From: Diacronema lutheri
Lineage: Eukaryota > Haptophyta > Pavlovophyceae > Pavlovales > Pavlovaceae
Length of the DNA: 64,000 nt
NCBI GenBank assembly: GCA_019448385.1
Contig: JAGTXO010000015.1
Location: 1 to 64,000, forward strand
Direction: 5' to 3'
The notes below the pieces were generated by a model. The model saw only the letters and a list, made by a program, of their open reading frames with translations, ran no database searches and was not told the DNA's origin. The position numbers and the translations under genes were made by a program. Below are positions 1 to 28,149 of this stretch, piece by piece (position 1 is the first letter of the stretch; every line of letters starts with the position of its first letter).

Positions 1-395
1 TTAGCCAAATCCGATCAGGGGCACGATCGCGCCCCGAGTGCAGCGCGGGCCGTTCGGAAGGACGTCCTTGTGAGGGAGCTCTTCGCGTTTGGCGAGCGGG
101 GGGAGCACGACGCGCAGCGTTGCTGCGGCGGCGTGCGGGCGGCGAGCAGCGGTCGGGCTGCTCGCGACGAGGCCGGAGCAGACGGCGCCGTGGCCGCCGG
201 CGCAGGTGACGCGCGCCGACGAGCCGTAGCGAGCGTCCGTGATCCGCACGGCGGTTGGAGCGGGCCGGCTGGTGCGGCGCGCTCGGCCACGGGTGGCGGC
301 GTGCACGGTCGTGCCGCGCGCGGCACGCGTCGCCAGCCGCGCGCGACCTGGGCAGAGCCCGCAAAGCGTCGACCGCTGCGCGGCTCGGCCGTGCG
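1..395 (-). other. 3' flank of the Fanzor gene; possible terminal exon or guide-RNA region
   Basis: This stretch lies directly downstream of the Fanzor stop on the minus strand. It holds an open minus frame that ends with a TAA at 3-1 and whose last 30 codons look protein-like, so it could be an alternative last exon, but no splice junction could be fixed. In TnpB and Fanzor systems the guide RNA usually comes from the 3' end of the nuclease gene and the sequence just after it, so this is where such an RNA would be expected. That is family knowledge; nothing in the sequence proves an RNA. Confidence 0.3.
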
Positions 396-3140
396 TCAAC
401 GCCGGCCGCGCTTCGGCCCGCGCGCGCTGCCGCCGCCGGCACTGGCGCTGGCAGCTCCGCGGGCGGGGGTGCGGGCGCGAGAGCCGCCGCCGCCACCGCC
501 GCCGCGCCCGCCGCCGTCGTCGCCACCGCCGTCGCCGCCGCCGCCTCCCCCGCCGTCATCGTCGTCGTCGCCGCCGCCGCCTCCGTCGCCGTCGCCGTCG
601 CCGTCGCCCTCGCCGCCGCCGCCGTCGCCGCTGCCATCGTCGTCGTCGTCGTCGTCGCCCTCGTCGTCGCCCTCGTCGTCGCCGTCGCACTCGTCGTCGC
701 AGTCGTCGCCCTCGCCGTGCACCATGCGCTCCTCACGCTCCCACACCTCGCCGCGCGCCCACCAGGCGAGCACGAGGGCAAAGCGCTCAGGCGTCGACGT
801 GGTGTCGCGCCCGGCCGCGTGCGCCGCCATGTCGTGCACGTCGTAGAAGATGTTGCGCGCGGCGTTGTAGTCGCGGTGCACGGGCTTCTTGCCGCCGTTG
901 CACGCCGGGCAGATGACGAGCGCGTGCACCGTGCGCGTGCCGCCCTTTGCCACGGGCAGGCGCGGGTTCTGCGCGAGCTCCGCGCCGCAGCGCTGCAGCC
1001 TGCCGCCCTTGGCGAGCCGCGGCATCGAGCAGTGCATCGACGTGTACGGCTCGGGCACGAAGACGGCCGCGACGCCGCGCCGCCGCAGCTCGCGCAGCAG
1101 CCCCACCTGGAAGGCGGGCGGCGCGCCCTTGGGCTGCGCGCCCTTGTGGTCGCGCAGCCACTTGCCCACGCACACGAGCAGCCGGTCGCGCGTCACGCCG
1201 TCGACACAGTGCGCCGCGATGAGCGCCTCGGCGACCCGCGCCGCGTTGGACCGCCCGCCGCTGTCGCGCCGCCAGCGCTCCTTCCGGCGCGCCGGCGCGT
1301 CGTACACGTGCTCGGCGGCGCGCTCGCGCACCCGCGCGCTCTCGCGGTGGAAGGCGTGGAACTCGCCCTCGCCGAGCACCTTGGCGCTGTGCGCCTCGCC
1401 AAGCCGCGCCTCGTCCGCCTCCACGCTGAACTCCTCGCCGCGCCCGTCCTTGCGCACGCGCCGCCGCGCCGCGTTGGTCTTGGCCGTCTCGCGCGCAAAG
1501 CCCGCGGCGCGCGCGCGCGCGCGCTGCGTGAACTGCCGCCAGACGGCCGCCCGCCCGACGTGCGCAGAGTAGGTGGTGATGTTGCCCATGTTTGGGTCGG
1601 CCGCGACGACGACCGCCGCCTCGACGTCGATCGCCCGCCGCAGCTCGGAGCCGAGCGCGACGGCGATGCGCCCGTCCGGCCGGCGCCAGCGGTGCAGGAC
1701 GCCCGAGCCGCCGGCCGGCGCCTGCGCCTTCGGCACGAGGACGGTCCCGACGGCGTGCACGGCGACGCCATCTGTCACCACCGACTTGACGGGCTGCCGG
1801 CCCGGGAGCGGCACGCGCGGCAGCGGCGCGAGGCCAACCCACGAGCGCCGCGCGTGCCACGGCAGATCGGCCGGCGGCCGCTCGCGCCCGGCGTAGTCGA
1901 AGACGCGGTTGGAGATGTCGAAGCGCGTCGCAAAGACCGCGTACCTGACGCGCACGTCCGACATCGGCGGGGTGTTGCCGTTTGTGCCTGTCCACTTGAT
2001 CGGCTCGCCATCGTGGTCGCGCAGGTCCAGCGCCTTGAGCCGCGTGCGCAGCTCCTTGCGCTCGTCATCCGAAAGCGTCACCCAGATGGCGCTCGCGGCG
2101 AGGCGCACGTTGCGCGGCACCTGCGCGCAGCGCGCGGCGCGCGAGCGCGCGGGCGCGTGACCAACCTGGCCGCGGGGCGGCGCGCACGGCGGCGGCGCGC
2201 GCGCTTGGGCGCTCGGCGGCGGCAGCGGCAGCCACGCCTCGCGCGCACATTGTGCGTGCGCAGCGGCGCCACATTGTACCGCGGCGGCCGTCCGGTCAGC
2301 TGCGTGTGGATGTGCGCGAGCCGGCAGAGCAGCGCCTGCCCCTCGGCCACGTGCTGCAGGGTGCGGATCTGCACGAGGAAGTAGCGCGTCGTGTGCCGGT
2401 CGTAGTTCCACCTTTTCGTGGGCGTGCACTTGTAGTCGATCTTGTGGAGGACCATGTCGGGCAGGTGGCGGTCGAGCGCGGCGGGGCAGCCGACGCGCGC
2501 GCCCTCCACGTCGCCGCGCAGCAGCCGCTCGCACAGCTCGCGCACGCGCGCGTTTCGCTGCATCTCGGGCAGCGCGACGAGCGCCTCGTCGCGCTCGACT
2601 GCCGCGCGGACGACGTCGCGGAGCAGCCCGTTCACGACGCGCGATGGATGCATCAGGCACGCGGTGGACACCTGCGTCGCCTCCGCCTCGAGGATCTCCG
2701 TGAGGCCCACCGCGCAGACGGGCTGGACGCCCTCGGCCATCTCGCCGACGGCGCGCGCCGTCGCCGCCTTGGTCTGCGCGGCGGCTTGCTCGGCGGGCTT
2801 GCCTCGGGGCGCTGCACCGTACGTGCTCTCGTCCTTGTGCCAGCCGATGGCCGAGAAGATCGCACGGACGGTTCCCTTGTCCATCGTGGTCGACGTGTGC
2901 ACGCTGGTCGACGGGCCGCCCGACGCCGCGCCGACGGCCTGCGCGCTCGCCACCGCAGCCTCGTCGCGCACCACCTTGTTGATGACGCGGTACGCCTGTG
3001 TCGTGAGCCTGTGCACGGCCGCCGCGATGCGCCGCAGCTCCTTCCGCGCACCGGGCTGCGCCGTCACCGCCTGCGGCCCCGCGTTGAGCGTCGAGCGCTT
3101 GACCACGAAGCCCGGGAGCACGCTGACGCGCGTGCGCGCC
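396..3140 (-). CDS. Fanzor1-like RNA-guided nuclease (eukaryotic TnpB homologue)
   Basis: Carries the split RuvC fold of Fanzor/TnpB nucleases. RuvC-I is AADPNMGN with the Asp codon at 1596-1598; RuvC-II is VPEPYTSMHC with the Glu at 1050-1052; RuvC-III is HRDYNAARNI with the Asp at 870-872. Cysteines of a zinc ribbon lie between II and III (HCSMP, RCG, CPAC). Upstream is VVTDGVAVHAV, like the TDGVSVS signature of Fanzor1. The N-terminal part (about 3140-2249) lies in the frame of the giant upstream ORF and joins the RuvC part through an intron at 2121-2248 (GT...AG, phase 0 on both sides). The C terminus is a long Asp/Gly-rich tail ending in a basic GPKRGRR, possibly a nuclear localisation signal. 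All three catalytic acids are present. Expected function: RNA-guided DNA cleavage that helps maintain or spread its host element. Whether it is made alone or as the end of the giant protein is not known. Confidence 0.85.
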   Translation of the reverse strand, partial: GAHARQRAPGLRGQALDAQRGAAGGDGAARCAEGAAAHRGGRAQAHDTGVPRHQQGGARRGCGGERAGRRRGVGRPVDQRAHVDHDGQGNRPCDLLGHRLAQGREHVRCSAPRQARRASRRADQGGDGARRRRDGRGRPARLRGGPHGDPRGGGDAGVHRVPDASIARRERAAPRRRPRGSRARRGARRAARDAAKRARARAVRAAAARRRGGRARRLPRRARPPPARHGPPQDRLQVHAHEKVELRPAHDALLPRADPHPAARGRGAGAALPARAHPHAADRTAAAVQCGAAAHAQCAREAWLPLPPPSAQARAPPPCAPPRGQVGHAPARSRAARCAQVPRNVRLAASAIWVTLSDDERKELRTRLKALDLRDHDGEPIKWTGTNGNTPPMSDVRVRYAVFATRFDISNRVFDYAGRERPPADLPWHARRSWVGLAPLPRVPLPGRQPVKSVVTDGVAVHAVGTVLVPKAQAPAGGSGVLHRWRRPDGRIAVALGSELRRAIDVEAAVVVAADPNMGNITTYSAHVGRAAVWRQFTQRARARAAGFARETAKTNAARRRVRKDGRGEEFSVEADEARLGEAHSAKVLGEGEFHAFHRESARVRERAAEHVYDAPARRKERWRRDSGGRSNAARVAEALIAAHCVDGVTRDRLLVCVGKWLRDHKGAQPKGAPPAFQVGLLRELRRRGVAAVFVPEPYTSMHCSMPRLAKGGRLQRCGAELAQNPRLPVAKGGTRTVHALVICPACNGGKKPVHRDYNAARNIFYDVHDMAAHAAGRDTTSTPERFALVLAWWARGEVWEREERMVHGEGDDCDDECDGDDEGDDEGDDDDDDDGSGDGGGGEGDGDGDGDGGGGGDDDDDGGGGGGGDGGGDDGGGRGGGGGGGSRARTPARGAASASAGGGSARGPKRGRR
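480..720. repeat. Trinucleotide-rich tract coding the acidic Fanzor tail
   Basis: Imperfect runs of CGC/CGT-type triplets encode, on the minus strand, alternating Asp and Gly blocks at the Fanzor C terminus. Such tracts vary in length by slippage, so the tail is unlikely to be catalytic. Confidence 0.7.
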
Positions 3141-6100
3141 GTCGCGCCGCCGGCGGCGCGCGCGCTCGGCGCAGCGGGCTCGTCCACGCGCGCGCGCTCG
3201 ACGCCGCGCGCGCGGGGAACGCTCGGCGCGCGCGCGCCCGCGGCGTCGCGCGCGCTCGCGGCGGCACCCGCCGCGGCGCGCTTGCCCGCGGCGCCCGACT
3301 CGCCGTGCGCGCGAAGCGGCGCCGACGCCAATGCCGACGCCGCGCCCGCGCCGCCGCTGCCGCTGCCCGATACGCCCGCGCGCCGCTTCTGCTCGTCGCG
3401 CGTCTTGCGGAACTGGGCGACGAGGTCGCTGCTCACGTTGGCCTCAGGCTCCCACGTGTCGGCGCTCTCGTCGTAGCCCCGCCACCTGATCCGGAACTGG
3501 AACGTCACCTTCTTGCCCGCCTTGCGGCGCTCGTCGACGACCGCCTCGACCTCGTACGTGCGCGCCTCCTCGTCGACGCTCGCGCCCGCCGCGCTCGCGC
3601 CCGTGTCCGGCCACCCAGCGACCGTGCCGCCCAGCCTCTCGGCGGCCGCGCGCAGCTGCCGCTCGCGCTGGGCGGCCGCGGCGCCTCGCGCGACCAGCGC
3701 GGGCAGCATGCCCGCGCCGCCCGCGAGGCCGTGCGCGCCGACGCTGGCGGTCATCAGCGCGTCGAGGCACGCGAACGTTGCGAGCGCACGCGCGCCATCG
3801 TCGCCGCCGCGCGGCTGCGAGCGCACGACGGGCGATGGCCGCGGCTCCCCCTCGGCCGCGAGCAGCGGCCAGATCGCACTGGCCAGCGCGACGGCATGCG
3901 CGCCGACCGCGACGGCCACGTCCGCGTCGAGCGGCGCAAAGTCGTAGCGCACGAGCGCGGCCGGGCGCGAGTCGTCCGTCGGCCGGTCGGCGACGAGCAG
4001 CCCGACCGGGCGCGGCGGCTCGCCGGACGGCGCGGCGACGGGCACGCAGAGGAGCACGACGAGCAGGCGCGGCGTGCCGCCGAGCAGCGCGCGCGCGGCA
4101 TCCGCCCCGTCGGCTCCGCCGCGCGCGGCCGCGGCGAGCAGCTCGGCCGCGCGCGTCGGGCCCAGCGCCGTGCGCGCGTCCTTGCGCGCGCGTGCGCGGG
4201 CCGTGTACGCGGCGCAGGCGTCGTCGAGCACCGCCGCGCTGGGCGCGGTGCCAGTCGTCGCCCACGCGCGCAGCGCGTCGCGCACCCGCGTGACGATCGC
4301 CTGGTCGACCGCCGCCTCGCCGGCAGCGTGCGCCGGCGCGCACGCCGGCGGTGCGGCGGCAGGCGCGAGCGCGGGCGCGCCGTCGGCGCCGTCAACGCCG
4401 ACGGCGCCGTCGGCGCGCCGCCACGCGAGCTTCGCCTCGATCTGCTGCCGGACGGCGTGGCAGTGCCGGTCGATGCCGCGCGCGTCGTCGAGCGCGGCCA
4501 GCGCGTCCTCAGCGGCGGGACGGCCGCTCGCGTCCGCGACGGCCTGCAGGCAGAGCAGCGCGGCCGCACGCGCGTTGCACGCGCTCTGCGGCTCGGGCGC
4601 GAGCGCGAGCTCGAGCTCGAGCGGCGACGCGCCTCGCGCCGCGGCGATCGCGTCCATCAGCACGTCCAACCGCTGCACCAGCGCCCTGTGCGCGTCGCGC
4701 GGCGCGCCCGTCGACGGCGCGCGCGAGCGCGTCGCCAGGAGCCCGAGCGCGCGCGCCGGCGCGCCCGCCGGCGTGTGCAGCACGAGCAGCGCCGCGCCCG
4801 CCAAGCTCGCGTTGCGCGTGACGAGCGCGAAGATGCGCGTCGCCTCGTGCGCGCCCACCGACGCCCAGATCGCAGCGCGATCGGCGTCCGTCTGCGCGTC
4901 GCACAGGTCGCGCACGTCGTCCGGCGCGAGCAGCGCGCCGCCGCCGGCGGAGCGCGCGACGATCGCCCGCGCCTCCGCCACGAAGACGGCCTGCGGCAGG
5001 TCGGCGTGGCGCGCGTCGACGATGGCGCGCGTCGCGTGCACGCCGAGCTCCACGCCGCGGTAGAAGGCGCGCGCGTTGGCCGCGCGCGCGTGCGCCGGCC
5101 GTCCGTCCGCGTTGCGCCTCGCGCGCGCCTGCTTGCTCGTGCGCGCGAGGCCGTCGCGTGGCGGTGGCGGCAGCGTGGCGAGGAAGCGCGCGGCGGGCGG
5201 CGGCGCGCGCACGCCGCGCTGCCGCCGTGCGATGGCCGCGAGCCGCCGGCCCGCCGCGCTGCCGCCCGCGCCGACGTGCTGCCGGCGGCCGAGCGCCGCC
5301 GGTGGCGGCGGCGGCGGCGGCGCGGCGGCGGGCGGCGGCGCGACGGCGGGCGGCGGCGCGGCGGCGGGCGGCGGCGCGGCGGTGGGCGGCGGCGCGGCGG
5401 CGGGCGGCGGCGCGGCGGCGGGCGGCAGCGGCGGCGGCGCGGCGGCGACGGCAGCACCAGTCGGCTTGTCCGCCCACGCACCCGAGACTCTGTCCCAGAC
5501 CTTGCCCCATGGCGCGCGCCCACGCGGCCGCGCGAACTGCCCCGGCTCGAGCGCCTGGCCGCGCTTGGCGGCGGCGGCGGCGGCAGGGGGCGGGCGGCCG
5601 GCGCGCCAGTCGAAGACAGGTGCAACCGTGGCGGCAGGCGCCGAGTGCCGCGCGTCGGTCACAGAGCGCGTGGTGCGCGCGGCGACCGTGGCACGCCTGG
5701 CGGGCGGGCGGTGAGCAGCGCCCGCCGGCGCGCCGGCGGGCGCGGCCGCCTCGAGCCCGGCGGAGGCGCCGCGCTTGCGCTTGCGCGTGCCGCCGCGCGT
5801 GCGCCTGCGCGCGCGCCCGCCGCGCGCCCGTTCGGCCTGCGCGTCGCCAGCCGCGTCGCCGGCCGCGTCGCCGCGCCGCACGTAGACGACCGCGAACGCC
5901 TCCTCGCCGGTCCCGTCGACGCCGCCGCGCGCGCGGCGCAGGACCGACCGCCACTGCAGCCGCCGCGCGCGGCCGGGCTCGCACGCAAACCAGCGCCCAC
6001 CGCGCCTGACGACGGCCACAAAGTCGTCGTCGCGCCGCCCGCGCCGGCGCGTGCGCAGCAGCACGCACTGCACGTCGAGCCAGCCCTCGTGCCAGTCGGC

Positions 6101-9100
6101 CGTGCTGGGGGCGACGCGAATCGACTGCGGGAGCTCGACGCCAAAGCCGGCGAGGCGCACGATGTGCGCGACGATGACGCTCGAAATGGCGGGGGCGCTC
6201 GACGGGTCGCCCGCTGCAGCGAGCACCGCCCCGCCCCAGTGCTCACGCGTGACGCAATCCGCGTCCTCGACGTGCACGTGCGCCACGCTCGCGCCGAGCT
6301 GGTGCAGCAACGCGCAGATGTCGGCGTCGACCGTCCTCTCCTCCTCGGCCGCCTCGGCCGTGCCGCGGGCGGCGGCGTCGCCTGTCGGCTGCCCGAGGTA
6401 CGCGATCGCCCGCTCGACGGCCGCGCGCTCCGCACGCGCTGCGCTGTCGATCGCCGCATTGCCGACGGGCGCGCGCAGCGCCGCGATCGCGTCTTGCAAC
6501 GCCGTCGCGTCGCCCGTCGCCGCCGCCGCCGTCACCGCCGCCGCGCTCGCGGTGCCGTGCGCGACGGCGTGCAGCGCGGCGGCGCGCGCGGCGGGGATGC
6601 GCCCGTCCAGCGCGAGCACGAGCGGCGGCCCGGCCGGCGTCTGCTGCCGCCGGTGCCGCCGGCTCGCAGCCGGGTGGTCGGCGCGCGCGCGCTCGAGCCG
6701 CGCGCGCCGCTCGACGACGCGCGCCCAGAAGGCCTGCACCCTCGGCTGCGCGAATGCAAGCCAGCCGGCGCCGCGCGTCACGACGTGCACGACGATCCGG
6801 TCCTCGTGCCTGAGGTACTGCACGTAGAGCGCTTTGCTCACGCCGAGGACGTGCATGCCGAGCTGCAGCTGATCGCGGTGCGGCTGCGGCGGCCCGTCCT
6901 CGTGCGCCGTGGCGCCCGCCTTGGTGAGCGTCTTCACCTCGACGAGGACCTGCTCGTTGTTTTCGGGGAGGATGGCGAGCCCGTCCGGCGAGAAGGCGAA
7001 CGGCGCGCTCTTGTCGTGCGGGTCCGCACGCACCATCGGCAGGTTGCACACGACGGTGATGCCGTACGCGGCCGCCAGCTTGCGCAGCGCGACGGCCTCG
7101 CCGAGGATGCCCGCGGTCGTCGCCTTGGTCCGCACCTCGCGCCGCCGCCGGTGCACGTACTCGTCGGTGAGCGTCTCGTGCGCGACGCCGGCGTTGTCGT
7201 TCACGACGTCGCCAACCTTGCTGCCCGTGACCTCCTCCCATCGCTCGTCGTGCCAGCGCGGGCTGCGCTGCGCGGGCGCGCCCGCGCCGACGGCGTCGAG
7301 CACGCGGCGCAGCGCTGTGCCGTCGGGCGCAGCAGGCACGCGCGCGCGGTCCTGGGCCTCGCGAGCGTCGAGGACGCGGCCCGTAGTGGAATCTTGGGGT
7401 AGGTCGAGCTTGCTCGCCTCGCCGTAGCGGCTCTCCAGCTGGCGCGGTGCGTCGGCAGGGCCGCCGTCCGTGCGCGCACCCGACGCGCCCGCCAGTGCAC
7501 GCGGCGCAGCGTCCGAGGCGCCCGCCGCGCCCGCGCCGCCGCCAATCGCGCCAGCGCACGCGCGCGCCGCGACCTGCGGACGGCCAGCCGCAGGGACCTC
7601 GTCCGCTCGGCCGGCCGCTGCGTCGGCCGTCCGCTTGGCCACCTCGCGCACGTCTCCGAGCGCGAGCGTGGCTGGCGCCGTCCAGCTCCCGTTGCGTTTG
7701 TCCCAACATTTGAGCAGCCCGCCAAGGAAGGGCGTGCCCGTCGGGCGGTCCTCGGGCACCTCCGCCAGGATCGCGTCGACGCGCAGCGCGGCCGCCACAT
7801 CGCAGAACGCGCGCGCGGCGCGCGCCATCCGCTCGGCGCGCGCGCCGCCGTCGTCCGCCGCGCGGCGGATGGCGTGGCTCACGTGCGCGACGCGGAGCGA
7901 GACGACGGCGTGCGCCGGCGCGTCGGCGCCCGTGCCGAGCGTGTGCCGCCGGATGGCCAGCTGCCCATCGCCCATGCGCGGCGGCAGCGACGCGCACGCC
8001 GCGACGGTCGTCGTGCCGGCCGCGCTGTCGCACAGCCAGCTCGCCTCGCCGCCGCCCGCAAACTCAAAGGTCGCGAAGCCCTCGCGGCCGAAAAGCGCGA
8101 CGAAGTGGTCGAGCACCGCCTTGTTGATCGCGCGCGCCGCCGGCCGCGTCGATGCGCCGCGGGCAGCGCCACCCGCCGCGCCGCGCGCATCGCTGCACGT
8201 CGCAGGGCAGGTGCAGCCGGACGCGCGCACGCCGTCCGACCGCGTCCGCGGCAGCTCGAGCTCGCGCACCTTGGGGCAGAACCAGAGCGGGTTGGACGCC
8301 TCGAGGCACAGCACGACGAGCCGCCCGTCCGTGCCGGCCAGCGCGCGCGCGTCGCGCAGCAGCTCGACGGCGAGCTCGGACGTCGCCGCGTGCACCGCCG
8401 GCTCGCCCGTCGCGCGGTCGGGCGGGAAGAGGCCACCGCCGACGAGCGGGCTGGGGCAGCGGCCGAGCATCACGAGCAGCGGCGGCGGCGGCGTCTGCGG
8501 CGCCTGCTGCCCGACCGCAGCCGCCGTCAGCCCGGCCAGGTCGGAGCTCGTGCGGAGGGCCTTGAGCGCGACGCGCGAGCCGGTGCCCGCCTGCTCGGAA
8601 AACGTGGCGAGCATGGCGCACGTGCTCGCCCTCGCGCCGCACTGCCAGCTGACGCGCGCGAGGAGGCCTTCCAGCGTGTCGTTTTCGCGCGGCCGCGTGA
8701 CCGCGTCGAGCGCCGCCGGGCCGAGCTGGAGGCTGCCGGGCGTGACGCACAGCACCGCCTCGTGGTAGGCGCGCAGCAGCTCCCTCGGCAGCTGCTCGGC
8801 GGGCGTCGCCGCCTGCCCGCCCACCCACCGTGCACCGTGGCCGCCGTCGCCCGCGCCCGCGAGCCGGACCGCCGGCCCGCCCGTGATCGCCGAGGTCGGT
8901 GGCGTGCCGAGCGCGTCGACGAGCGCGCGCACGGGCGCGACACGCCTGCGCGCAGCGTCCGCGCCGACGGCGAGCGCGGCGATCTGAGCGCCCTCCCATG
9001 CGCGCTCCCTCGCGTCGTCCCGCGCGGCCGCCGGCGCGGCGCCCGGCCGCGCGCCGGGCGGCACCGCGCACGCCGCCGCGACGACCTCCGCGCGCGCGCC

Positions 9101-10969
9101 GGCGGCGTCGGGCGCGTGCAGCTGCGCGAGCGCGCCAAAGAGCGCGGCGGCCGAGCGGTAGCGGCCGTGCGCCGCGACGAGCGCGTAGAGCACGCGCAGC
9201 GCGGCCACGCCCGCCTGGTCGGGCGCGTCGCCAGCGATTTGCTCGACCTCCCACGTGCGCGTGGGCGGCGGGCTGCCGTCGGCCGGGTCCGGACGCAGCG
9301 CCCACGCGCGCTCGACGATCGCGTTGAACACGCCGCGCGCGGCGCCCTCGTCAAACTCGGCGGCGCCCGCCGCGTGCGCGCACCACCCGTGCACGCGCGA
9401 CGTGGGCGCGTCCACGGCGCGCTGCACGACGAGCACCGCCGGCCGGTCGACGCAGCCGAGGCTCACCGCCGCGTGCTTGCCCTCGAGCAGCGCCGCCGCC
9501 GCAGCCTCGACCAAGGCGTCATCAGGCGCGTCGCCGACGACGACGGCACAGCCGTCGCCGTACTCGGCCTGCATCGCGGCGACGCACGACGCGACAAAGT
9601 CGCCGCCCGCGGCCGCCGCGTGTCGCGCCGCCAGCATCCGGCGCGCGATGGCAAGCCAGACGTACTCGGCCGGCGCGCGCGCGGCGCGCGCGCGAGGCGC
9701 GCCGGCCGCGCCGCGTGCGCCCGCGCGTGCGCCTCCAGCGGCCGCAACGGCCGAGGCGGCTGGAGCGGCGGTGAGCGTGCGCCGCGCGCGCTTCGCCGGC
9801 CGCGTGATGGGCGATGCACCCGCCATCGCACCGCCCGCAGCAGCCGGTGCGGCCGCCACAGCGCCCGCCGCAACGCCACTCGTCACGACGCCCGTGGCGG
9901 GCGGCGCGGCGGCGGACGTGGCCGCCTCGACGGGCGTCGCGCAACTACCGCCAGCGGTCGCGGACGCGCCCGGCGACGCGTCGGCGAGGAGGTGGCGCAG
10001 CACGCCGCGCGCGAGCGCGACTGGCACGGCGAGCGTCAGCGCGCGCAGGCGGTCGGAAGGCGAGGCGTCGCGCTCGGCGTCGGCGGACGTGGCGGCAGCA
10101 GGCGGGGCGGCGGGCGGCACGGCGGCGGGCTGGGCGGCCGCCGGCGCAACCTCGTCGGCCTTGGCCAGCCAGACGAGCCCGGCGACTGCGAGCACGACGC
10201 TGTACGCGCCGACATCGTCACCCGCAACGCGCGCCAGCCGGGCGTGGGCGTCGGCCTCGGACACGGCGACGTGGAAGAGCACGTCGTCGCGGGCAGCTTG
10301 CTCGGCAAACTGACGCAGCTGCTTGGCCATCGTCACGCCGGCGACGCACGCCTCGCCCGCCTCTGCCTCGACCTGCTCGTCCTGGCCGATGGCGGACGCG
10401 CCGGCCTCGGCGCCAGCGTCGAGTGTCCGGCGGCGCTCGAGGGCGAAGCCACGCACACAGACGCGCTGGAGGCCGCCGAGCGCGCCCGCCTTCTCGTGCA
10501 GCGCGCACGACAGCTCGACCACCGAGTCCACGCGCCTCGCGGCGGCGCCCCCCCGCTCGCCGCGCGTGGCCGCGCGCACGACGAACACCGTGAATTGCGC
10601 GCGCTTCGCCGCGCGCGCCGACGCGCACGCGTGCTTCAGGAGCCGGCAAAGCGCGGGCCTTTGCGCCGCTGCGCCCCGCGTGCACAGCAGCAGTTGGCCG
10701 CGCTCGTCGCCCAGCTCCTGCTCGACGGCGGCCTCGAGCGCGTCGTCCGTCAAATCGCCGTGCTCCGTCGAGGCGAGCGCGCGCGCAGCCGCGAGCGCCA
10801 GCTCGCCTGCGCCCGCGCGCCGCCGGCGGCGCGCACCGGCGGGCGCGTGCGGCGCCGACGCGTGTGACGACGCCGCCGCGTCCGCGCGCGCACACGCGGC
10901 GCGCAACGCCTCACGCGCCGAGGCGGCCGCGCGCGCCCTGGGCGCGAGCTTCAAGAACGTGCGCGCGGC

Positions 10970-11039
<70 letters not shown>

Positions 11040-12613
11040 TCGCCCGCGTCGCCGGCCGGCGGCGGCGGTGGCGGCGGTGGCGGCGCGGCCACGGCGGCGG
11101 CAGCAGCGGCGGCGGCGGCGGTGGCGGCGGCGGCGGCGCCCAGCGCGGGCGGCGGCGGCGTGGCGGCGGCGGTGGCGGCGGCGGTGACGCCAGCGGCGGC
11201 CTTGGCGCCGCGCGTCTGCGGCGGCGTTTCGGCGCGATCGGGGCTGCCCCCGCCACGCACCGCGCTCGTGACCGCGCAGACGCCGCCCGGCGCACGATCG
11301 CTGGCCGCGCCGGTCAGCGCGACGCGGAGGCGCTCGCCGACAGCGTACATGTCCGCCACGCCGAACGTGCGCGGCGCGGACGAGCAGCCCGCCGCGGCGA
11401 GCGCGTCGTTGAGCGCGCCCACTATCGCGAGGCCGCACGTCGCGCCACGCTGCGCCGCCTCGTTGAGCAGCAGCGCGCGGCGCACGCGCGAAATGTCGAG
11501 ACCCGCCGCGTGCAGCGTGGCAGTTATCGCCTTGGCGAGCATGAGCGCCTGCCTGCAGGGCGACGCGAGCGTGTCGACGAGCACCGCGTCGTAGCGATGC
11601 TCGCCCGCGCGCGCGACGCGCACAAGGCGCAACGCGGTGAAATGGCCGGAGGCGAGCTGCGCGCCGTCGTCACCGCCCGCGCCGCCGCGCTCGTCCGACG
11701 GGCTCCACACGCCGATGACAGCCTGCGTTGTCGCCTCGCTGCGCAGGCGGTGCAGCAGCGCGGCGCGCTCGGCGTCGTCCTGAAACACCGCGGGTTGCGC
11801 GGCGAGCGGCACGTGGCAGACATGCCCGCCGCCGGCCTGCCCGTGCACGCGCAGCACGACCTCGCAGCACGCGTCGACGGTTGAGGCGAGCATGTCGCCG
11901 CTGGCGATGCGCTCCACCTCTGCCTGCGGGAGGCCGGCGCTCGCGGCGGCGGCGGCCAGCCGGCGCGCAGCCGCGTCGCCCGCCCACGCAAGCAGCGCCG
12001 AGTTGGCGGGTTGGAGGGGAAGCTCAAGGGCGGCTGGTTCGGTGGCGGTAGCCTCGTTGGCAACGGGCACGTTGGCGGTGCGCGCGTTGGCGGCGGGCGC
12101 GGCGGCGATGGCTGGTGGGGCGGAAGACGCGCCCGCGGCGGCGGGCGCGGACGCGGCAGCGGCAGCGGCTAGTGGGGCGGGGAAAACGCCGTCGGTGGCA
12201 GGCGCGGAGGCGAATGCAGGAGCAACTAGTGGGGCGGGAAAATCGGCGGCAGGCGCGAAGGCGGATGCAGCAGCGGCTAGTGCGGCGGGGAAAACACCGT
12301 CGGCGGCAGGCGCGAAGGCGGATGCAGGAGCGCCCAGCGGGGCGCAGAAAAACCGTCGGCGGCAGGCGCGAAGGCGACAGCAGCAGCGGCCAGTGGAGCG
12401 GAGGCGCAGGGCCACGCGCGCGCCAGCCGTGCAAGCCCAAGCCGCGCGCGAGCGACGCACGCGCCGATGGCCGAGGCGGCGGCGCAGGCCACGACGTGGC
12501 CTGGCACCGGTGTGGCCAGCCGCTCGCGGGTGTGCACGTCGAGCCGCGCCCCACGCCAAGAGCGGCGGCGCGCTGAACGGAGGCGCGCGACCCCGATCGA
12601 TCCGCCCGCGCAC
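2249..12613 (-). CDS. Giant multidomain ORF: Ulp1-like protease repeats, YqaJ exonuclease, chromodomain, leading into Fanzor
   Basis: About 3,450 codons are open without a stop. Domains in order: (1) an Ulp1/C48-like cysteine protease at about 11900-11400, with GHFTALRLV (His), a following VDTL (Asp) and QRGATCGLAIVG (Gln and Cys). (2) Related but degenerate units farther on, for example DAPDQAGVAALRVLYAL near 9.2 kb and ACNARAAALLCLQAV near 4.55 kb. (3) A YqaJ-type PD-(D/E)XK exonuclease at about 7255-6790, with LGEAVALRKL, FSPDGLAI, VEVKT and HRDQLQLGMHVLG supplying the Glu, Asp, Glu-x-Lys and Gln set. (4) A chromodomain at about 3560-3400 (YEVEAVVDE, then FRIRWRGYDESADTWEPE). (5) The Fanzor N-terminal region. 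Spacers are rich in Ala, Pro and Arg. The first part overlaps the end of the upstream ORF inside a tandem repeat. Function of the whole is inferred to be mobile-element replication and targeting. Some in-frame introns may be hidden. Confidence 0.6.
5290..5450. repeat. 18-bp tandem repeat coding Pro-Ala hexapeptides
   Basis: About six copies of an 18-bp GC-only unit encode PPPAAA-type hexapeptides on the minus strand, between the YqaJ domain and the downstream helical region of the giant ORF. It looks like a flexible linker grown by slippage. Confidence 0.75.
10960..11040. repeat. GGC microsatellite coding poly-alanine
   Basis: A run of more than 20 GGC triplets encodes uninterrupted alanine on the minus strand. 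A second, less regular GGC-rich stretch follows to about 11190. Both lie in a linker of the giant ORF. Confidence 0.85.
12150..12400. repeat. Minisatellite, about four units of 51-63 bp
   Basis: Degenerate units share cores such as GGGGCGGGGAAAA and GGCGGCAGGCGCGAAGGCG. On the minus strand they encode SAFAPAADGVFPAALAA-like peptides. The end of the 12.3-19.3 kb gene and the start of the giant ORF overlap here in different frames. Confidence 0.8.
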
Positions 12614-15600
12614 GCGCGCGCCGGCTCAGTGTGGCCAACGCGCGCCGCTATGCAAGGCGCGCGCGCGATAACGGCGGCTGTCGGCCGTGGCGTGCGCGTG
12701 GCGGCGCCGCGGCGACGGGCGCGGCACACGAGCCGCTCGGGCGCGCCGCCGCCGCGCGGCACGATGTCGAGCAGCACGGTCACGCCGCGCGCGCGCGCGA
12801 CCGCCGTGCACGCGAGCCGCACGGGCAGCGGCGGCCCGTCCGGGCGCGCGAGCGCCGCCACCTCGGCGTCGGTGAGGCTGTGCAGCTCGCGGCGCGCGCG
12901 CGCGAACGCGGCGATGTCCGCGCGCAGCTCCGCGTCCGTGCCGAGCGCGGCACGCGCGTGCACGGGGAGCGACGCGCGCAGCGCGTGGAGCACGCCGCCG
13001 CGCGCGCCGCGCGGCGCCGGCGCGCGCTCGCGCTCAGCGCGCGCGGCGCGCGTGAGCTCGCGCACCGCGCGCGCGAGATTGCGCCGCGCGGCCGCGACGG
13101 GAGGGCTAGGTGCGCGCGCGCGCCGGTTGTAGCGCGGCCGCGCCGAGTCGAGGGGCGGCGGACGCGGTGCGTACGCCGCGGCGCGGCCCGCGCGCCAAAA
13201 GGCCGGCGGCGGGCGCAGCTCCGTCGCGTCGACCGCGGCCGCGAGCGCGCCGAGCGCGGCGTCGCTGTCGCCCGCCGCGTCGGCCGCGTCGACGAGCACG
13301 AAGAGCGCGCCGAGCGCGCGCGACGCGGCCGCCTGCGCGGCGGTGGGGCGGGCGCAGGCAGCGACGCATGCGGCCGCCATGCCGCGCGCCGCGGCGAACG
13401 CCGGTGACGTGACGGCCGCGCCGATGGCAACGGCGGCGGCGGCGACGGTGGAGGCGGCAGCGCCGGCGATGGAGGTGGCAGCGGCGGCGGCGCTTGCCAT
13501 CGCGCGGCGCGCGAGACGCGAGGCGCCACCGACCGCCGCCGCCGCAGCGCGCGCTGCGCGCGCGCCGGTGGCGCGCATCGTCGCCGCGCCAGGCGCCGCC
13601 GCGCCGACGCCGCCGGCGCCCGCGCCGTCGCCGCTCTCGGCCGTGCAGGGCTCCGATGGCGAACCCGGCGTGCGCTGGCGCGTGATGCGCGCGCCGAGGC
13701 GCGCGCTCCGCGCCGCGCGGCCGGCGACGTCGAGGAAGCGCCGTGCGCGCGCCGCGCGCAGGCCACGCGCGCGCGGCGGCGCACCGACAGGCGCCGAGCG
13801 CCGCGGCGCGCACGCCGGCGCGTCGCTGTCGGGTTGCGCAGCGCGCGCGCGGGAACTCGGCGCGGCGTGTGCGGGCGGCGGGCGCGCGCCCGCGCGGCGC
13901 AGAGGCGCGAGGCGCCGGCCGCAGACGAGGCGTGTGCGCAACCAGGACGGCGAGGGCCGCAGGGCGCCGTCGACATCGCGCATCGGCGGGCCGCGAGCCC
14001 GCCGCGCAGCCGTGCGGCGCGCGCGAGGCGCTCGGCGGCGCGCGCGCCGCACGGCGCGCGCGGCGGCGCGCACGCCAGCGACGGCTGCGGCCACGCCGCG
14101 CGCCAACACGGCCGCGGCGTGCGCCATCGCACCGAGCACGGCGCGTGGCGCGCCGAGCAAGCGCAGCAAGCGCGACGCCGTCGCGCGCGCCGGCGCACCG
14201 TGTGCAGGGGCCTCGCCAGCGCCAGCACCGACGCCGCCATCGCCGCAGCCGCAGGTGGCGTCGCCGCCGCCGCAGGCGTCGCGACGGACGCCGCCGCCGC
14301 CGAAACAACCGCCGCACACGTCGCCGCCGACGTTGCCACCCCAGCCGCCGTTGCGTGCGCAGGTGGCTGCGGCGCGTGCGTGCGGGAGGCGTGCCGTGCG
14401 GCGCGCATCACACGGGCTGCGCGACGCGAGCGACGCCGCCGGGGTCCCCGCTGCGCCAGGCGCGCCGTGCGCGCCAGCCTCGCCGGCCTCGCCGGCGCGC
14501 GGTCGCGCGCTCGCCTCGACGTGGCCGCCTCCGCCGCCATCGCCGCCGTCGAACCGGGCGGCGGAGGGCTGCCGCTCGAACCGCTCGTCGGCGTCGGCCG
14601 CCACCGCCGCCTCGCGCTCCGCCGCCGCGGCGGCCGCACGGCGCGCGTGGCGGAGCGCGCGGCCGCCGTCCGCTGCGCGGCGTGGCGGCGCGGGCGCGGG
14701 CTTCGGCGCGCGCGGCCCCTCGGCGCGCTCGCGGAGCACGGCGAGCGGCGTGCCCGTGGCGACGCTCGTGCAGACGCGCCGCAAGGCGGCGCTTACGCAC
14801 GCGTGGACGACGCGCGCCGTCCGCTTGTCGGCGGCGCGCGCGGCGCGGCGCGCGGCCTTGGCGGCGGCCTTTTTGGCGCGCCTCTGCTCCGCCTGCTCCG
14901 ACAGCGCGCGCGCCTGGCGCTCGGCTGCGAGCGCGTCCTCGGGCGAAACGGTCGGCCTCGGCGGCCGCGCGCGCGCGCTGCGACGCTGCGCGCTGCGGCG
15001 GTCGGACGGCGGCTGCCGCGGCGGCGAGGACGGCGAGCGCGAGCTCGGCGTGGGCGACCAATCGCCGCTGACGGTTGCGAGCGGCGCAAACGGGTTGTCG
15101 TCCCCGCGACCCGCGGCGTGCGACAGTGCACGCGGCGTCGGGCGCCGGCCGACCGCTGGCGGGCCCCACTCGGACGGCGGCTCCGAGGGCGAGCGCGCCG
15201 TCGGCGCCGCGCGTTGCGCGGCCGGCGGCGCCTCCCGGTCCAGCGCCGCCTGCTCTCTCGCCGCGGCCTGCTCGTCACCCTCCGGCACGCCACGCGGCGC
15301 GAGCACCGCGGTGGCGCAGCGCGTCGCGTTGAGCAACGCCGCCTCCATCTGCCGCACGCTGGCCTTGGCGCACGCCACACCCTCTCTCGCCCGGCGCAGC
15401 ACCTCGTGCGCGCGGCGCACATCCGCGTCGGCATCTTCGCGCATGCCAAAGTGCGCCTGTTGCAGCCGCAGGTCCGCAGGGCGCCCCTGCGCGCGAGGGG
15501 CACGGGCGCGGCGGCGCGCAGGTGACGGAGCTGGCGCGCCGTTCTGCGCTGCGCGCACGCCAATCGACGGGCGCGCGCGCGGCGGGGCGCGCGCGCGCGC

Positions 15601-18600
15601 GCGCGCGCGCGCTGCCTACCCAGCCGCCGGCCGGCTCGCGCGAGCGCGCCAGCTGCTCCGCCGCCTCGGCGTCGAGCACGCGCTGCTGCGCCTCCTCCTC
15701 GCCCAGTGCAGCGAGGTGCAGCCGGCGGGCTGCCTTGCGGCAGTTGCCCTCCGCCTTGCCCACGGCCTTGCGCGCCGCGTCGACGGGGTCGTCGTTGGCT
15801 CTGGCGCGCCTGCGCTTGCCCTTGTCGGCGGGCGGCGGCTTGGCGCGCTGCAGCGTGCCGAGCGCGTCGTCGGCTCCGCGCGCGGCCGCCCGCGGGCGGC
15901 GGGCCCCAAAAAGCGCACCGGTCGCCGTGCGCGCCGCGCAAGCAACGACCAGCGCTGACATGCCGGCGAAGACCGCACCGCCCAGCGCCACGGTTGCCAC
16001 GATGCGCAGCGTCCCGTGCGCAAGCTGCGCTGCCTCCGCCGCTTTGGCGGCCTCGCGCGCGCGCGCATCGGCGGCTCTCATCTCGTGCAGCAGCCCGGCC
16101 GCGCCGCTCGCGCCGTCGCGGCCGCGCGCGAGCTCGCACAGCACCGCCGCCGCGCGCCGCGTGGGCTCGCGCGCGAGCAGCTGCGCGCCGCCGTCGGGGC
16201 GCAGCTTCTCAACGAACTCGACAAACGTCGCGTCGCGCCAGAGGGACATGCGGAAGGCCCTGTGCACCGCCCCCTCCTGCTCGCGCATCCGCCGTGCCGC
16301 CCGCCTGCCGTCGCGCGCGTGCGCGTGCGCGGCCGCGTCGAATCCCGCGACGCCGCGCTGCGCGTCGCGCGCGGCCGACGACGGCGCCGCCGCGCTGCCC
16401 GCCAAGGGCGCCGCAGCGGCGACGCGCGCGTGCGGAGCGACGGGATCGCCGGCGGCCGGCGGCTCGGCGCGCTGCGGCGTGCCGTTTGCTCCGCGCGCGG
16501 CCGTCCCGGGGGAGATGGCCGCGATGGCGCCGCCAGCCGCGCCGCGCGCCAGCCACGCGCATAGGCTGCCGACGAGCTCGCCGAGACCCCCGACGGTCGC
16601 CGCGGCGGCGAGTGCGCCGGGCTTGCCGGCCGACAGCGGCTCGCGAGCGTCGTCGTCGCAGCCGCCGGCACCCGTCTTGGCGAGTGCGTCGCGCTCGCCC
16701 TCGACGCCCGCCACGACCGCCGCCCCTCCGTCGTCCGCCGCGCCGGCCGCGCGCGCGGCCGGGCGCAGAGGAGGCGTGCCGGTGCAGCCGTCGCCGCTCG
16801 TCTTCGCCGTTTCCTCCACTTTGGTCACTTCGTCGCCACCTGCGCCATCTCCGACGCCGGGGCCCTTGGTCACGCTTGCCGCCATGCGCGCCGTGCCCGC
16901 CGGCCAGCCCGCCGACTGCTCGAGCGCGGCGGCGAGCGGCGCGACGCGCGTCGACTCGGGCGCGCTCTCGTCATCGGGCTCGAGCGCGTTGTGCAGGCGC
17001 GCGAGCGCGCGCTCGACGGCCGCGGCGCCACTGCCGGGGGCGCGGCTCGCCGCGCGCACCGCGCGCCGCCAGGCCGGCGCGAACATGAGCGCCGGCTCGA
17101 GCGCCGCGAGCGCGCGCGCCTCGCGCGCGTCGCTCGCGCCGAGGCGCGGCGGCACGCGCGCGGCTCCGCGCGGCGCGGTGCCTCGGAAGCGTGGGCTCAG
17201 CGTGTAGGCGAGGTGCTGCGGCACGCCGCGCGCCTCCGCGCGCGCGCGTCCGTCCTCGACCTCGCGCCGCGCCTTCGCGATCGCCGGCGTGGCGCGCGCG
17301 AGCCAGTCGGGGTCGGCGGGCAGGTGGATCACGACGAGAATCGGCGCCCAGTCCAGCCGCGGGTTCTTGTGACGGTCGGGCACGACCCACACGAGCAGCA
17401 CCGTGCCCTCCGCGCCGCACGCCGCCTCGTAGATCCTGGGCTGCGAGCGCCAATCGGGCCTGACGCGCAGCGCCCGCGCGTGGTCGATGGCGGCGGCGCG
17501 GTCGCCATTGAAGTGAACCGTCGTCACCTCGCCGATGACGGACCGGCCGGACCGCCAGCAGAACACCGCGTCCGCCGACCCGCCGGCGATGGCCGCGAGC
17601 GATTCGGGCGCGGCGAGCCGCGGCAAGCCCTCGAAGGCGGCAAAGTCCTCGTGCGCATTGTACACGCCGCCCCAGCCGTCGTGCGCGTACGCGCGCGCGG
17701 CCGCTCGTACCGCGCGCGGCTGGTTCTCCACGCCCGACGTCATGTGCCATGTCGTCCCCGCGAAGCCGGGCTCGCCCAGCTCGGCCCGCACGACGGTACC
17801 GTACCCCGCGCCCTGCGTCGGGGCGGCGAGGTGGTGCATGCCCGCGCCGGTCACGCCCTCCGTGCGCTGCCGCGTGACGATCGTGCCCGTCGCGTGCGCG
17901 AAAAGCGTGTCGACCACGGCGGGCGCGCGCCCGCTGTTCGCCCGTAGCCGCGCCCTGCCCGCTTTTAGCTGCTCGGGGTCCTTGGCGTCGTACACGCGCG
18001 CGTCCGCGTCGCCCTCATCAGGCGCAGTGTAGACGCAGCGGCGTTCGAGCGGCGCCGAGCCACCGCCGTCCGCCGCCGCCGGCGAGGTTGGCGCCGCGCC
18101 CGCCGCCACCGCGCTCGTCGCCGCCGTGCCCGTCGCCACCGCCGCAGCCGCCGCGCCCGCGGGGTCGTCGTCCCCGTCCTCCGCGCCCTCCCCGTCGTCA
18201 GCGGTGGTGGCGTCGCCATCGTCCCCGTCGCCCTCGCCCCCGCCGAGGCTGCTGAATGGTCGGGGCCCCCACGCCGAGGCGGCGCGCCGCTGCGGCGCAC
18301 GCGGCGGTGGCGCTCGCGACGGCGGCCTTGGCGCCGCCGCGCCGCGCGGCCTGGCCGCCGTCGACAGCGCGCGGCCTGCAGCGCCCGTGAGCGCGTCGAG
18401 CGCGGCCGTGCGTGCGATGCGGTCGTCGGGCGCGCGCAGCGCCGCCTCGACGGCCTGCAGCAGCCCGTCGGGCGCGGATCCGCCGATACTGGCATCGCAC
18501 GCCTCGGCGAGCCGCGCGGCCTCGGCGAGCCGCGCGGCCTCGCGGGTGAACGGGCCGAAGCGCCTGGCGCGGTCGCCGAGCAGAGCGCCGATGGCGGCGC

Positions 18601-19294
18601 GGAGCGTGCGCGCGCGGGTCTCCTCGTACGCGGCCGTCGTGAGGCGCGCGAGGCGCGCGTCCAAAGCCTTCTTGATGTCGACAAGGACACTCGCGCGGCG
18701 GCCGTAGAGCGTCGATGCGCTCGCCACGACCTCGGCCGCGACTGTTGCCGCGGCGAAGCAACACGCGGCCCCACTCTGCGGGGGCGCCTTGAAGGCATCG
18801 ATGGGCGGCGCTGTTCTGCCGATGCGCTGCGCAAGCTTCTTGATGAGCACGCCGGCCGCCGTGGCGTACGCCGATTCGCCGTTGCCCAAGGTGCGCGAAT
18901 CGGCGAGCAGGGCGAGCGCGGCGCCGGGCGGCGCGCCGCGCTGCGCGGGCGGCGCGAGGAGCAGGTACGCCGCCGTCCAGTGCACGAGGCCGCTGGACGC
19001 GCGGAGGCAGAGCGGTAGCACGACCACGAGCACCTGCCCAAACCGGTCCGCATCCGCGCATGCTTTGCGCAGGTTGCGCAGCGCCACCTTGAGCGCATGC
19101 TGCGAGCACCCCGTGTCGCCCACCCTAACCCTGCTCGTGCCGAAATCCGCGTAACGCAGCAGGGCGATGAGGCAAGTGGATGGGACCACGTGGGGGTGGG
19201 TATCTCCCGGCGACAGAATGGTGCTGAGGGCCAGCGAGAAACTGTCCGAGCCGCCCCGCCCGCCGGGCAAAGCGTCCTTCACGGAGTCCTCCAT
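12277..19294 (-). CDS. Large two-exon ORF with N-terminal Ulp1-like protease domain; function otherwise unknown
   Basis: Starts at ATG 19294 (MEDSVKDALPGG). Exon 1 runs to 15620 (1,225 codons) and ends TGG before GTAGGC. Exon 2 starts at 15486 after a CAG acceptor; the 133-bp intron (15487-15619) is phase 0 on both sides and contains a long CG dinucleotide run. An Ulp1/C48-like cysteine protease fold is suggested at about 19000-18730 by VHWTAAYLLL (His), ALLADSRTL (Asp) and PPQSGAACCFAAAT (Gln, Cys). A later block around 17600-17300 (DAVFCWRSGRSVIGEVTTVHF) could be a PD-(D/E)XK-like nuclease core, but this is weak. A hydrophobic helix (IVATVALGGAVFAGMSALVV) lies near 15950. Coiled-coil-like sequence bridges the splice site (KAVGKAEGN to VRRAHEVLRRAREG), which supports the junction. 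The rest is Ala/Arg-rich and unrecognised. Confidence 0.5.
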
Positions 19295-20555
19295 CTGCAG
19301 ACTGTGGGCACGTCAGTGTCCGGATGGCGGCCCGGATGATACTTGGGAGAATTTACATGATGCCCTGGAGAATGCCCCGCTCTCCCACAACCAGGACCCG
19401 CCAGCGCGCCGAGCCTACTCGTTTGCCCGCGCCGCCTCTCTTTGCGCGCCCGAGCGCGGCCTCCGAGCGCGGCCAACGTCCTCCGGGGGCGTGCATCGTG
19501 GCTGCTCGGAGGGGCTGCGACGCGGCGAAAGCTCGCTGCGCGGCCGCAACGTGAGCGCGCGCGCGCGGCCGCGCGCCGGCCTGCGCTGCTCTGCACGGCC
19601 GCGCGCCGGCCTGCGCAGCCTCGTCGCGCAGCGTGAGCGCGAGCGCGCGCGAGGTGAGCTCGGCGGATGGGTGCGCGGCGGCGTTGGCGGCGGGTGCGGC
19701 GGCAGGCTGGGCGGCGGGTTTGGACGGAGAGTGTCGGGGAAGAACGGGGCGCATCCTGGCTGGGAGTTGGACGGCGCCCACCACGCGCTGGCGGATCCTG
19801 GTTGCCACCACCACCCCCCCCCCCCCCCCCGGAGACGAGGACCAGGGGCATGGCCGACTCGCTGCGCCGCACAGCGCGCGGCGCGCGGCATGCTGCGCGA
19901 CCTCAAGCACATCCAGCCGCGCTCCGCCCACGCAACGCGCGCAATGCCGCGTTGCACTGCAGGTGTGCACGTGCGGCTCTCACGCGCACTGTGTTGCACG
20001 AACGGCATCACGCCACCGAGCTGCGTCCGGACCACGCGCCGCGCGCAGGCGACCACACAGGGGCGCGCCGCGCCGCGCGTGCGCGCCCTCGCAACCGTTG
20101 CAGCACGCTCTGCCTTGCACTGCGCCGAGCCGCCGCGCGCTGTGCGCGTGCATGCAGGGCGCACGCGTGCGACGAAGCGCGCGCGCGGCGAGGCGCGCGG
20201 GCGGCTCGCTGCGCGGGCGGCAACGCGCCCAGCTGCGCCCAGGCCAGGCGCGCGCCCGCGAGTGCCACCGGGACGCACTGCCCCCGCCGGGGTCGCCGCG
20301 CGCTCTGTGTGTGCGCTCGCGCGCTGCGAGCGCGGCGGAACGTTCGTGCATGGCGCGAAGAGCGCGGCACCCGAAGACGGCTGCCCCGAGCCCGCGCCGG
20401 GTGGCAGCGAGCGGCGGCACCTCCTCGGCGAGCCCGCCCCGCGCCTTCCCCTCCACGTGGCGTTTTGAGGCAGACGGACACGCGCCCACACTGCGACTGG
20501 GCACGCTGCTCGAGGCAGACACGCACCCAACGCGCGCGCACCACGCGCCCGCGTC
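19295..20555. other. GC-rich stretch without a convincing gene
   Basis: Open frames exist on both strands because stops are rare at this base composition, but none shows a recognisable domain. A poly-C run at about 19815-19830 resembles those found inside introns elsewhere in the window and may mark an early intron of the plus-strand gene that follows. Confidence 0.4.
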
Positions 20556-20559
20556 GGCG

Positions 20560-22011: not shown

Positions 22012-22214
22012 CGCACGTGCACGTGCGCGCCACTGGTCACATTTGAGCGTCCGTGCTCGCCCACAGCGTCGCCATCCACAAGATGCGCGCTGGAGCCATC
22101 CAAGCAGGGCTCTGCCTGCTCGGCTTCCGCAAGGCAATTTGGGCCGCGGACAGCGGACAGCGGACGGCGTGCGCGTGCGAGGTGCGAAAGGAGGAAGAAG
22201 GTAGGGAGAGTTGT

Positions 22215-22264
<50 letters not shown>

Positions 22265-27590: not shown

Positions 27591-27802
27591 GGTCGTTGTG
27601 CGCGGGAGATCACGCTGCAGGCGGGCTCCACAGTAGGTTCGAGAAAAAAAAAAGCTGGGCCAACGGTCAGTCGAGCGCCACAAGCAATCCTCGGGAGCCG
27701 GTGGCCCAACCCAACCCAACGATCTTCGTCGCCACCCTTCGCGCGTTTTCCGTTCGCGCCCAAGCAGACAATGAGACCACAATCTCGGTGCTGCTCGGCG
27801 CG

Positions 27803-28066: not shown

Positions 28067-28149
28067 GGCGCGCACGACGTCGCCCAGCCAGAGCAGCCCG
28101 GGGCGGGGCGAGTCCGGCTGCGCGGAGGTCCGGCTCGAGCGGGCGGGCG

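Follow-up and report, generated by a model that had tools for sequence, protein, structure and literature searches.

Chromodomain long terminal repeat (LTR) retrotransposons carry a chromodomain within the polyprotein of a mobile element. They are named in PMC6338049. The motif D-X(125,275)-[TS][TS]xx-C4 zinc finger-RD defines Fanzor1 and TnpB (PMC3627910), an alternative position for the RuvC2 glutamate is defined in PMC10711439, and the omegaRNAs of TnpB and Fanzor systems arise at the 3′ edge, beyond the nuclease gene (PMC10432273). In the green alga Auxenochlorella, the most abundant repeat is an uncharacterized Fanzor-encoding element (PMC12636532). Here we describe a repeated element of ~31 kb in the haptophyte Diacronema lutheri, whose genome has been reported as 43.503 Mb in 103 contigs, the longest of 3.042 Mb, with 73.25% GC (PMC8379373). 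We analyzed the first 64,000 nucleotides of contig JAGTXO010000015.1 (assembly GCA_019448385.1; C29 in our numbering), hereafter called the window, and the genome searched comprised 43,492,796 bases in 103 contigs. The window begins with one copy of the element; a very large polyprotein is predicted from its minus strand, in which a chromodomain stands in frame with an intact-looking Fanzor1 nuclease. We consider this architecture real, unusual, and well supported at the sequence level. It appears to be undescribed in the literature on Fanzor, YqaJ transposons, and Pavlovales elements that we covered, which included few subscription papers, and the accessible portions of PMC6338049, PMC11071296, and PMC12898463 do not describe it.

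A chromodomain in frame with a putative Fanzor1 nuclease

The element and its predicted gene have the following parts, in window coordinates.

1-31033, coding strand minus: single mobile-element copy of ~31 kb; the similarity of other copies ends at window 3 and 31033
1-35, plus strand: left end, which is the 3′ end of the coding strand; where other copies have it complete, it starts with GTATAGATGGTCAAGCC
1-395, minus strand: non-coding 3′ region from the Fanzor stop to the element end, without coding periodicity; candidate omegaRNA region
396-2120, minus strand: last exon, with the Fanzor RuvC, zinc ribbon, and acidic tail (PF07282, E 4e-6; motif spacing; alignment to another Fanzor of this genome, L074)
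2121-2248, minus strand: predicted intron, GT-AG, phase 0, 128 bp
2249-3175, minus strand: Fanzor N-terminal half, placed by its position, in an open frame whose codon-position GC is shared with the chromodomain
3404-3556, minus strand: chromodomain (PF00385, 46.3 bits against a cut-off of 25.1, E 4e-12; CDYL structure 2dnt, E 1.3e-8)
6659-7270, minus strand: YqaJ/RecE-like PD-(D/E)XK exonuclease (PHROG 434, E 4.3e-15)
11306-12010, minus strand: Ulp1 (C48)-like region by motif only, with no profile match
12136-12401, no strand: tandem repeat (units of 57/108 bp) at which the window copy changes its open frame
12402-15486, minus strand: upstream part of the giant open frame, with no domain found, 0 in-frame stops, and codon-position GC of 0.835/0.740/0.892
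15487-15619, minus strand: predicted intron, GT-AG, phase 0, 133 bp, that would join a 1,225-codon exon to the giant frame; the codon-position GC pattern is lost here
15620-19294, minus strand: first exon of the predicted polyprotein gene, 1,225 codons from a Met at 19294, with a second Ulp1-like region (motif only) near its start
30961-31033, plus strand: right end, terminating in GCGCCGTATATAG as in end reads of other copies

We predict a single minus-strand gene from 19294 to 396, with two phase-0 introns and a product of ~6,200 amino acids. A sequence-only reading of this DNA had proposed one coding run over 396-12613 that held, in order, an Ulp1-like protease, a YqaJ-type exonuclease, a chromodomain, and a Fanzor RuvC nuclease whose halves are joined across the intron at 2121-2248. 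That stretch is the 3′ part of the element that is repeated genome-wide. An open frame does join exonuclease, chromodomain, and Fanzor, each of which was recovered by profile searches, but the gene probably starts near 19294 rather than at 12613, and the window copy changes frame at the tandem repeat. The protease at the head of the proposed order has a motif only. The intron is bounded by GT and AG in phase 0, and the codon-position signature breaks off at its start and returns beyond it.

The frame is open over a long distance. Minus-strand 2249-12100 (9,852 nt) contains 0 in-frame stops, and so none between chromodomain and Fanzor, against a simulated mean of 23.8 and minimum of 11. Codon-position GC is 0.84/0.64/0.95 upstream, 0.63/0.41/0.98 in the chromodomain, 0.84/0.78/0.93 in the alanine/arginine-rich linker that leads to Fanzor (3176-3403), 0.70/0.64/0.96 and 0.73/0.48/0.93 in the Fanzor N-terminal half, and 0.75/0.54/0.96 in the RuvC exon; the pattern is lost in the intron 2121-2248 (0.81/0.91/0.88) and absent from the last 395 nt (0.71/0.83/0.75). 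Frame and codon-position GC are thus continuous from the chromodomain through the linker into the Fanzor N-terminal half. In the joined frame no Met occurs between residue 2973, which precedes the chromodomain, and residue 3248; barring another exon or a non-ATG start, any Fanzor that contains the sequence ahead of 3248 would therefore have to be translated from a start upstream of the chromodomain.

The same arrangement recurs across the genome. A chromodomain search returned 260 candidates, and 146 of the best 150, which were those scored, were assigned to the element family by score rather than row by row, the four best-scoring rows being excluded as lying in other frames. The 146 rows are distributed over 60 contigs. 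The open frame around the chromodomain spans 4,450-4,700 codons in 71 of them and ≥4,000 codons in 102, and the spacing from chromodomain to zinc ribbon recurs in 90 of 112 zinc-ribbon rows, almost all of these pairs agreeing to a few bases. The nearest solved relatives of the chromodomain by sequence are CDY-family proteins and MPP8, and its Y, W, and Y, which we take to be the cage residues, appear to be present.

The nuclease end of the frame matches the Fanzor-type RuvC end and zinc ribbon (PF07282) with 27.3 bits. A canonical Fanzor1 of the same genome, L074 (C9:378000-383500), also aligns with it: the 335 aligned columns are 26% identical, and the E value, computed for this single locus without low-complexity filtering, is 2.7e-9. 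L074 carries DPG, ESYTS, and RDFNAARN motifs and has no chromodomain match in its frame. It belongs to a second, canonical Fanzor1 family, which accounts for 13 rows at 43.9 bits, and more Fanzor-like rows occur at other scores. The element Fanzor agrees with the Fanzor1 motif given above: the catalytic D, E, and D and four Cys are present, with a D-to-TS distance of 184 and a terminal RD, and the glutamate takes the alternative RuvC2 position six residues before the zinc finger (E-x6-C). Among solved structures, the Cas12f 9i8y was matched at 3.5e-5 with a 3-row profile and at 0.14 with the sequence alone. Homologue searches, in which the best 8,000 candidates by shared words were scored, so that absence is weak evidence, returned one near-identical fragment (P0001) for the Fanzor region and P0002 only for a two-row Fanzor profile. 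These features identify the protein as a putative divergent Fanzor1 with its catalytic residues. An Rfam search of the 3′ non-coding region gave no match.

Extent, copies, and ends of the element

Other copies define both ends of the element. On the 3′ side, similarity to the window starts at window base 3 in 20 fetched copies, the window contig beginning about a dozen bases inside the end. Fifteen of the 20 have long flanks, which differ between copies, and their left end is GTATAGATGGTCAAGCC, with L013 and L022 as exceptions. At the opposite end, the match to the window ceases at 31033 in L033 and L034, whose flanks are unlike that of the window. Since similarity stops at both ends and the flanks differ, a single copy of a ~31 kb element occupies window 1-31033.

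Genome-wide searches with probes for the two element ends gave 246 and 241 candidates, and the best 40 scored per probe were all 100% identical to it; it is possible that the genome holds ~240 copies. Over the 3′ 4.9 kb, with gaps excluded, 19 of 21 compared copies are 99.49-99.86% identical to the window, the outliers being L012 (98.45%) and L005 (97.80%, over 3 kb). Over 6 kb with gaps counted, identity is 98.1-98.6% for L009, L010, and L012, and the 3′ end of L101, picked for its higher YqaJ score, is 99.8% identical. We take window 1-31033 to be a recently amplified mobile element. The differences of L012 (C6:1-6000) from the window are concentrated below ~3,130 of the 4,900 compared bases, which suggests that subfamilies have exchanged sequence by recombination or conversion.

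Shortened copies occupy the following positions.

C4:1055336-1076754: shortened copy, near 21.5 kb
C27:146428-168011: shortened copy, near 21.5 kb
C43:219528-241127: shortened copy, near 21.5 kb
C4:712948-734510: shortened copy, near 21.5 kb
C5:895653-922154: shortened copy

Three shortened copies, on C4, C27, and C5, retain both ends and the chromodomain half, and some of their inner stretches match nothing in the window. The recurring size of ~21.5 kb suggests mobilization in trans. For a shorter copy on C28 (right end 71510) the left end was not found at the predicted place, and neither were those of L045 and L062, which were excluded from the end set. At least eight contigs start (C1, C10, C12) or end (C3, C13, C14, C32, C33) within ~15 bp of the element left end; these are probably assembly breaks, yet they are strikingly exact.

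The ends are precise and carry short palindromes, counted by eye: an 18-bp near-palindrome at 18-35 on the left, in which 8 of 9 pairs match, and a perfect 18-bp palindrome, GTACGACCCGGGTCGTAC, at 30969-30986 on the right. All 25 right ends that were read further terminate in GCGCCGTATATAG, an invariance that is partly by choice because the 25 were taken from exact probe matches. No terminal inverted repeat (TIR) was seen at the element ends, and no target duplication >2 bp in 15 flank pairs. Direct repeats beside the element measure 2 bp in four of these pairs and 1 bp in six, with none in five; the L022/L071 pair is offset by one base as its left end lacks one. Four 2-bp repeats compare with ~1 expected, as reckoned by hand, and may hint at a 2-bp target step.

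A C precedes the left end in 15 of 28 left flanks, and 18 flanks are locally AT-rich, with a mean GC of 0.598 in the first 25 bp vs 0.715-0.729 past 200 bp. These 18 flanks of 5 kb, compared with each other, have no common repeat >150 bp, and the 17 outside the window share no repeat >150 bp with it over 5 kb. Two further flank pairs, selected as repetitive-looking and searched genome-wide, both lie in repeats (630 and 6 candidates). A search for the empty sites of two insertions found no clean empty allele, the sites being in palindromic or diverged repeats.

Taken at 240 copies of 31 kb, the family would amount to ~7 Mb, which is an upper estimate since scoring covered 40 end matches per probe and not every copy is full length. 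Repeats make up 22.9% of the D. lutheri genome, with LTRs at 32.7% and LINEs (long interspersed nuclear elements) at 3.8% of the masked bases (PMC8379373), and the element may explain much of the unclassified repeat content.

Other coding regions of the element

Beyond the features listed above, the element contains the following.

22666-23454, minus strand: ubiquitin-specific protease (UCH/USP) domain (PF00443, E 4.3e-8; USP12, E 0.014 by sequence)
25258-27591, minus strand: Pif1-like helicase (PF05970, E 1.8e-24; PF21530, the 2B domain, E 6.2e-13)
28148-29034, no strand: nested palindromic sequence resembling a miniature inverted-repeat transposable element, with inverted repeats of 207, 174, 104, and 89 nt and GTAGGGTGTAGGG runs

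Against the PF09588 cut-off of 22, the exonuclease scores 15.4 bits over the whole open reading frame, 21.6 in a piece, and 22.4 for the window copy in a six-frame search, and it matches TIGR03033 at 2.2e-5, below that model's cut-off. No relative was found among solved structures by sequence, nor any homologue of the YqaJ region among 2,173 candidates scored. Both Ulp1-like regions are presumed from the order H...D...Q...CG, which we take to be that of C48 peptidases. A C48 Pfam search of the frames gave no match in the Ulp1-like region, and the structure model of this piece is too poor to judge the fold (mean predicted local distance difference test, pLDDT, 43.8).

Window 19400-22600 has poly-C runs and no family match in the frames searched, and a plus-strand piece near 21.8 kb resembles what we take to be the start of a LINE endonuclease. 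A plus-strand open frame at 28929-30917 has coding-looking stretches and no family match. No transposase was found by Pfam, NCBIfam, PHROGs, or PADLOC in the frames searched. Two known identities were considered and rejected. For a Helitron, a Pif1 was found but Rep (HUH) is absent from the element by regular expression and family search; for ISL2EU, there was no transposase match, no TIR seen, and no AT target duplication.

Proposed mechanism, alternatives, and known systems

The account that we favor, tentatively and with slightly less than even confidence, is a mobile element with a giant polyprotein that ends in a chromodomain-Fanzor1 and includes a RecE/YqaJ exonuclease; computation shows the repeat and its ends, the open frames, the domains assigned above, and the repeated spacing of chromodomain and Fanzor, whereas an omegaRNA, break-copying, and chromatin-holding are the steps that we infer. 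Transcription of the ~395 nt that follow the Fanzor stop would yield an omegaRNA, which may extend into the flanking DNA, and the Fanzor nuclease would cut DNA matching this guide. The RecE-like exonuclease could resect the break, which would then be copied with the help of the helicase, and this may help the element to be copied or retained. The chromodomain may tether Fanzor to chromatin with methylated histones, which might be the chromatin of the element's own copies. The flank data favor neither of the two roles it could have, choosing the insertion site or keeping the nuclease at chromatin that belongs to the element. The sequence-only reading had proposed that the chromodomain would add a second, chromatin-level layer of targeting to the RNA-guided nuclease, which we regard as conjectural.

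A number of observations weigh against this account. At the ends, the 25 right and 28 left flanks contain no fixed motif able to serve as a target-adjacent motif (TAM), which argues against a simple IS605-like cut-and-copy or fixed-TAM homing loop. In the nuclease, RuvC1 reads DPN instead of the near-exclusive DPG. The PF07282 match is only 1 bit above its cut-off of 26.3, the NCBIfam TnpB model reaches only E 0.085, far under cut-off, and no solved Fanzor was matched by sequence (E ≤10) or by the 3-row profile (E ≤1). The N-terminal half has no significant match to the L074 Fanzor1 (BLASTP E 3.5), and the structure model of the RuvC piece, with pLDDT 37.6, is too low for use. The predicted fold of 1-300 is weakly unusual (z -1.72), 9 of 200 shuffles being as good. 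One antisense frame of the 9,852 nt holds just 3 stops, and openness alone is therefore weak and not decisive at this GC. Of the 112 zinc-ribbon rows, 22 have no partner among the best 150 of 260 chromodomain matches, which may reflect that choice of the best 150. Near 26.4 kb the match to the helicase passes into another frame, with no indel there in four other copies, and this may be an unplaced intron or a shared lesion. Finally, substitutions in young copies look neutral, with a nonsynonymous to synonymous ratio of 32:12 against an opportunity ratio of 2.49 (46:23 for L012 and 46:18 for L005), so no constraint is demonstrable at this age.

It is a serious possibility, although we doubt it, that Fanzor is a passenger and that an unrecognized transposase or recombinase in the polyprotein, rolling-circle or site-specific, moves the element, with the chromodomain serving integration or anti-silencing. 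Exact ends with nearby palindromes, no TIR seen, and no duplication >2 bp in the 15 flank pairs would fit such an enzyme, as would the large parts of the polyprotein without a detected family. However, no Helitron Rep, DDE, or tyrosine or serine recombinase was matched in the frames searched with the four databases, the single Helitron_like_N match in the genome (8.3e-23, C63:35738-36019) lies outside the element, and the chromodomain adjoins Fanzor within one open frame. That frame could still yield chromodomain and Fanzor as separate products through polyprotein proteolysis, an unseen exon, or internal initiation, which is unlikely without being far-fetched. The element has protease-like domains (USP by profile, Ulp1-like by motif only), the linker is long with a weaker codon pattern, and Met 3248 and later Mets could start a shortened Fanzor; against this, third-position GC stays at 0.93-0.96, with no change of frame, through the linker and the stretch leading up to Met 3248.

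The neutral-looking substitutions, and the frame changes in the helicase and in the tandem repeat of the window copy, would also be expected if the copies were dead relics whose intact motifs merely reflect youth. We find this rather improbable, given that the catalytic pattern survives at ~26% identity to another Fanzor1, which argues for function over longer times, and that long open frames of ≥4,000 codons persist in most family rows (102 of 146). A fragment of an endogenous large DNA virus, in place of a transposon, is very improbable: Fanzor is known from large double-stranded DNA viruses (PMC3627910) and YqaJ and Ulp1 are both named in a paper on Mimiviridae gene clusters (PMC3620924), but the frames searched with Pfam gave no capsid or DNA polymerase match, the unit is repeated with exact ends, and viral-contig scans and a phage search returned no relatives. 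An extension of our favored account, in which a new class of giant elements without a conventional transposase would choose sites for its chromodomain-Fanzor by guide RNA and histone marks and copy itself into the break with its own RecE-like exonuclease and Pif1, we hold to be improbable.

If expressed as one protein, the chromodomain-Fanzor would be a naturally occurring Fanzor that brings its own reader of histone marks, and chromatin-aware targeting would be directly testable. Since the copies are so numerous and so nearly identical, sequencing of RNA and of guides should pose little difficulty in this alga.

Several known systems share parts of this arrangement. Helitron2 (PMC3627910) has hairpins near both ends, an association with Fanzor1, and usually no target duplication, and a helicase is present here as well; unlike Helitron2, the present element has no detected Rep domain and no TTTT target context. 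Short asymmetric terminal repeats are a further trait of Helitron2. ISL2EU (PHIS) also encodes a YqaJ exonuclease within a transposon, but it has a DDE transposase, TIRs, and AT duplications (PMC4482050), none of which was seen here. The Auxenochlorella element likewise encodes a Fanzor, is abundant in an alga, and belongs to no assigned class of repeat, a likeness by description rather than sequence, since the accessible text does not give a chromodomain, size, or domain list (PMC12636532). PpFz1 carries an extra domain, FRI, which is linked to cyclophilin, and in the accessible part of that paper no chromodomain is mentioned (PMC11423790); it resembles the element Fanzor in being a Fanzor with an added domain. 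Described Fanzor1 elements share the D, TS, C4 zinc finger, and RD and the location of Fanzor1 on a repeated mobile element. Most of them are linked to known superfamilies, whereas the present element, of ~31 kb, yielded no transposase, and its Fanzor forms the C-terminus of a giant frame with several domains, among them a chromodomain. As in chromodomain LTR retrotransposons, the chromodomain lies within the polyprotein of a mobile element; in contrast to them, reverse transcriptase and integrase matches are lacking, and the chromodomain precedes a Fanzor nuclease.

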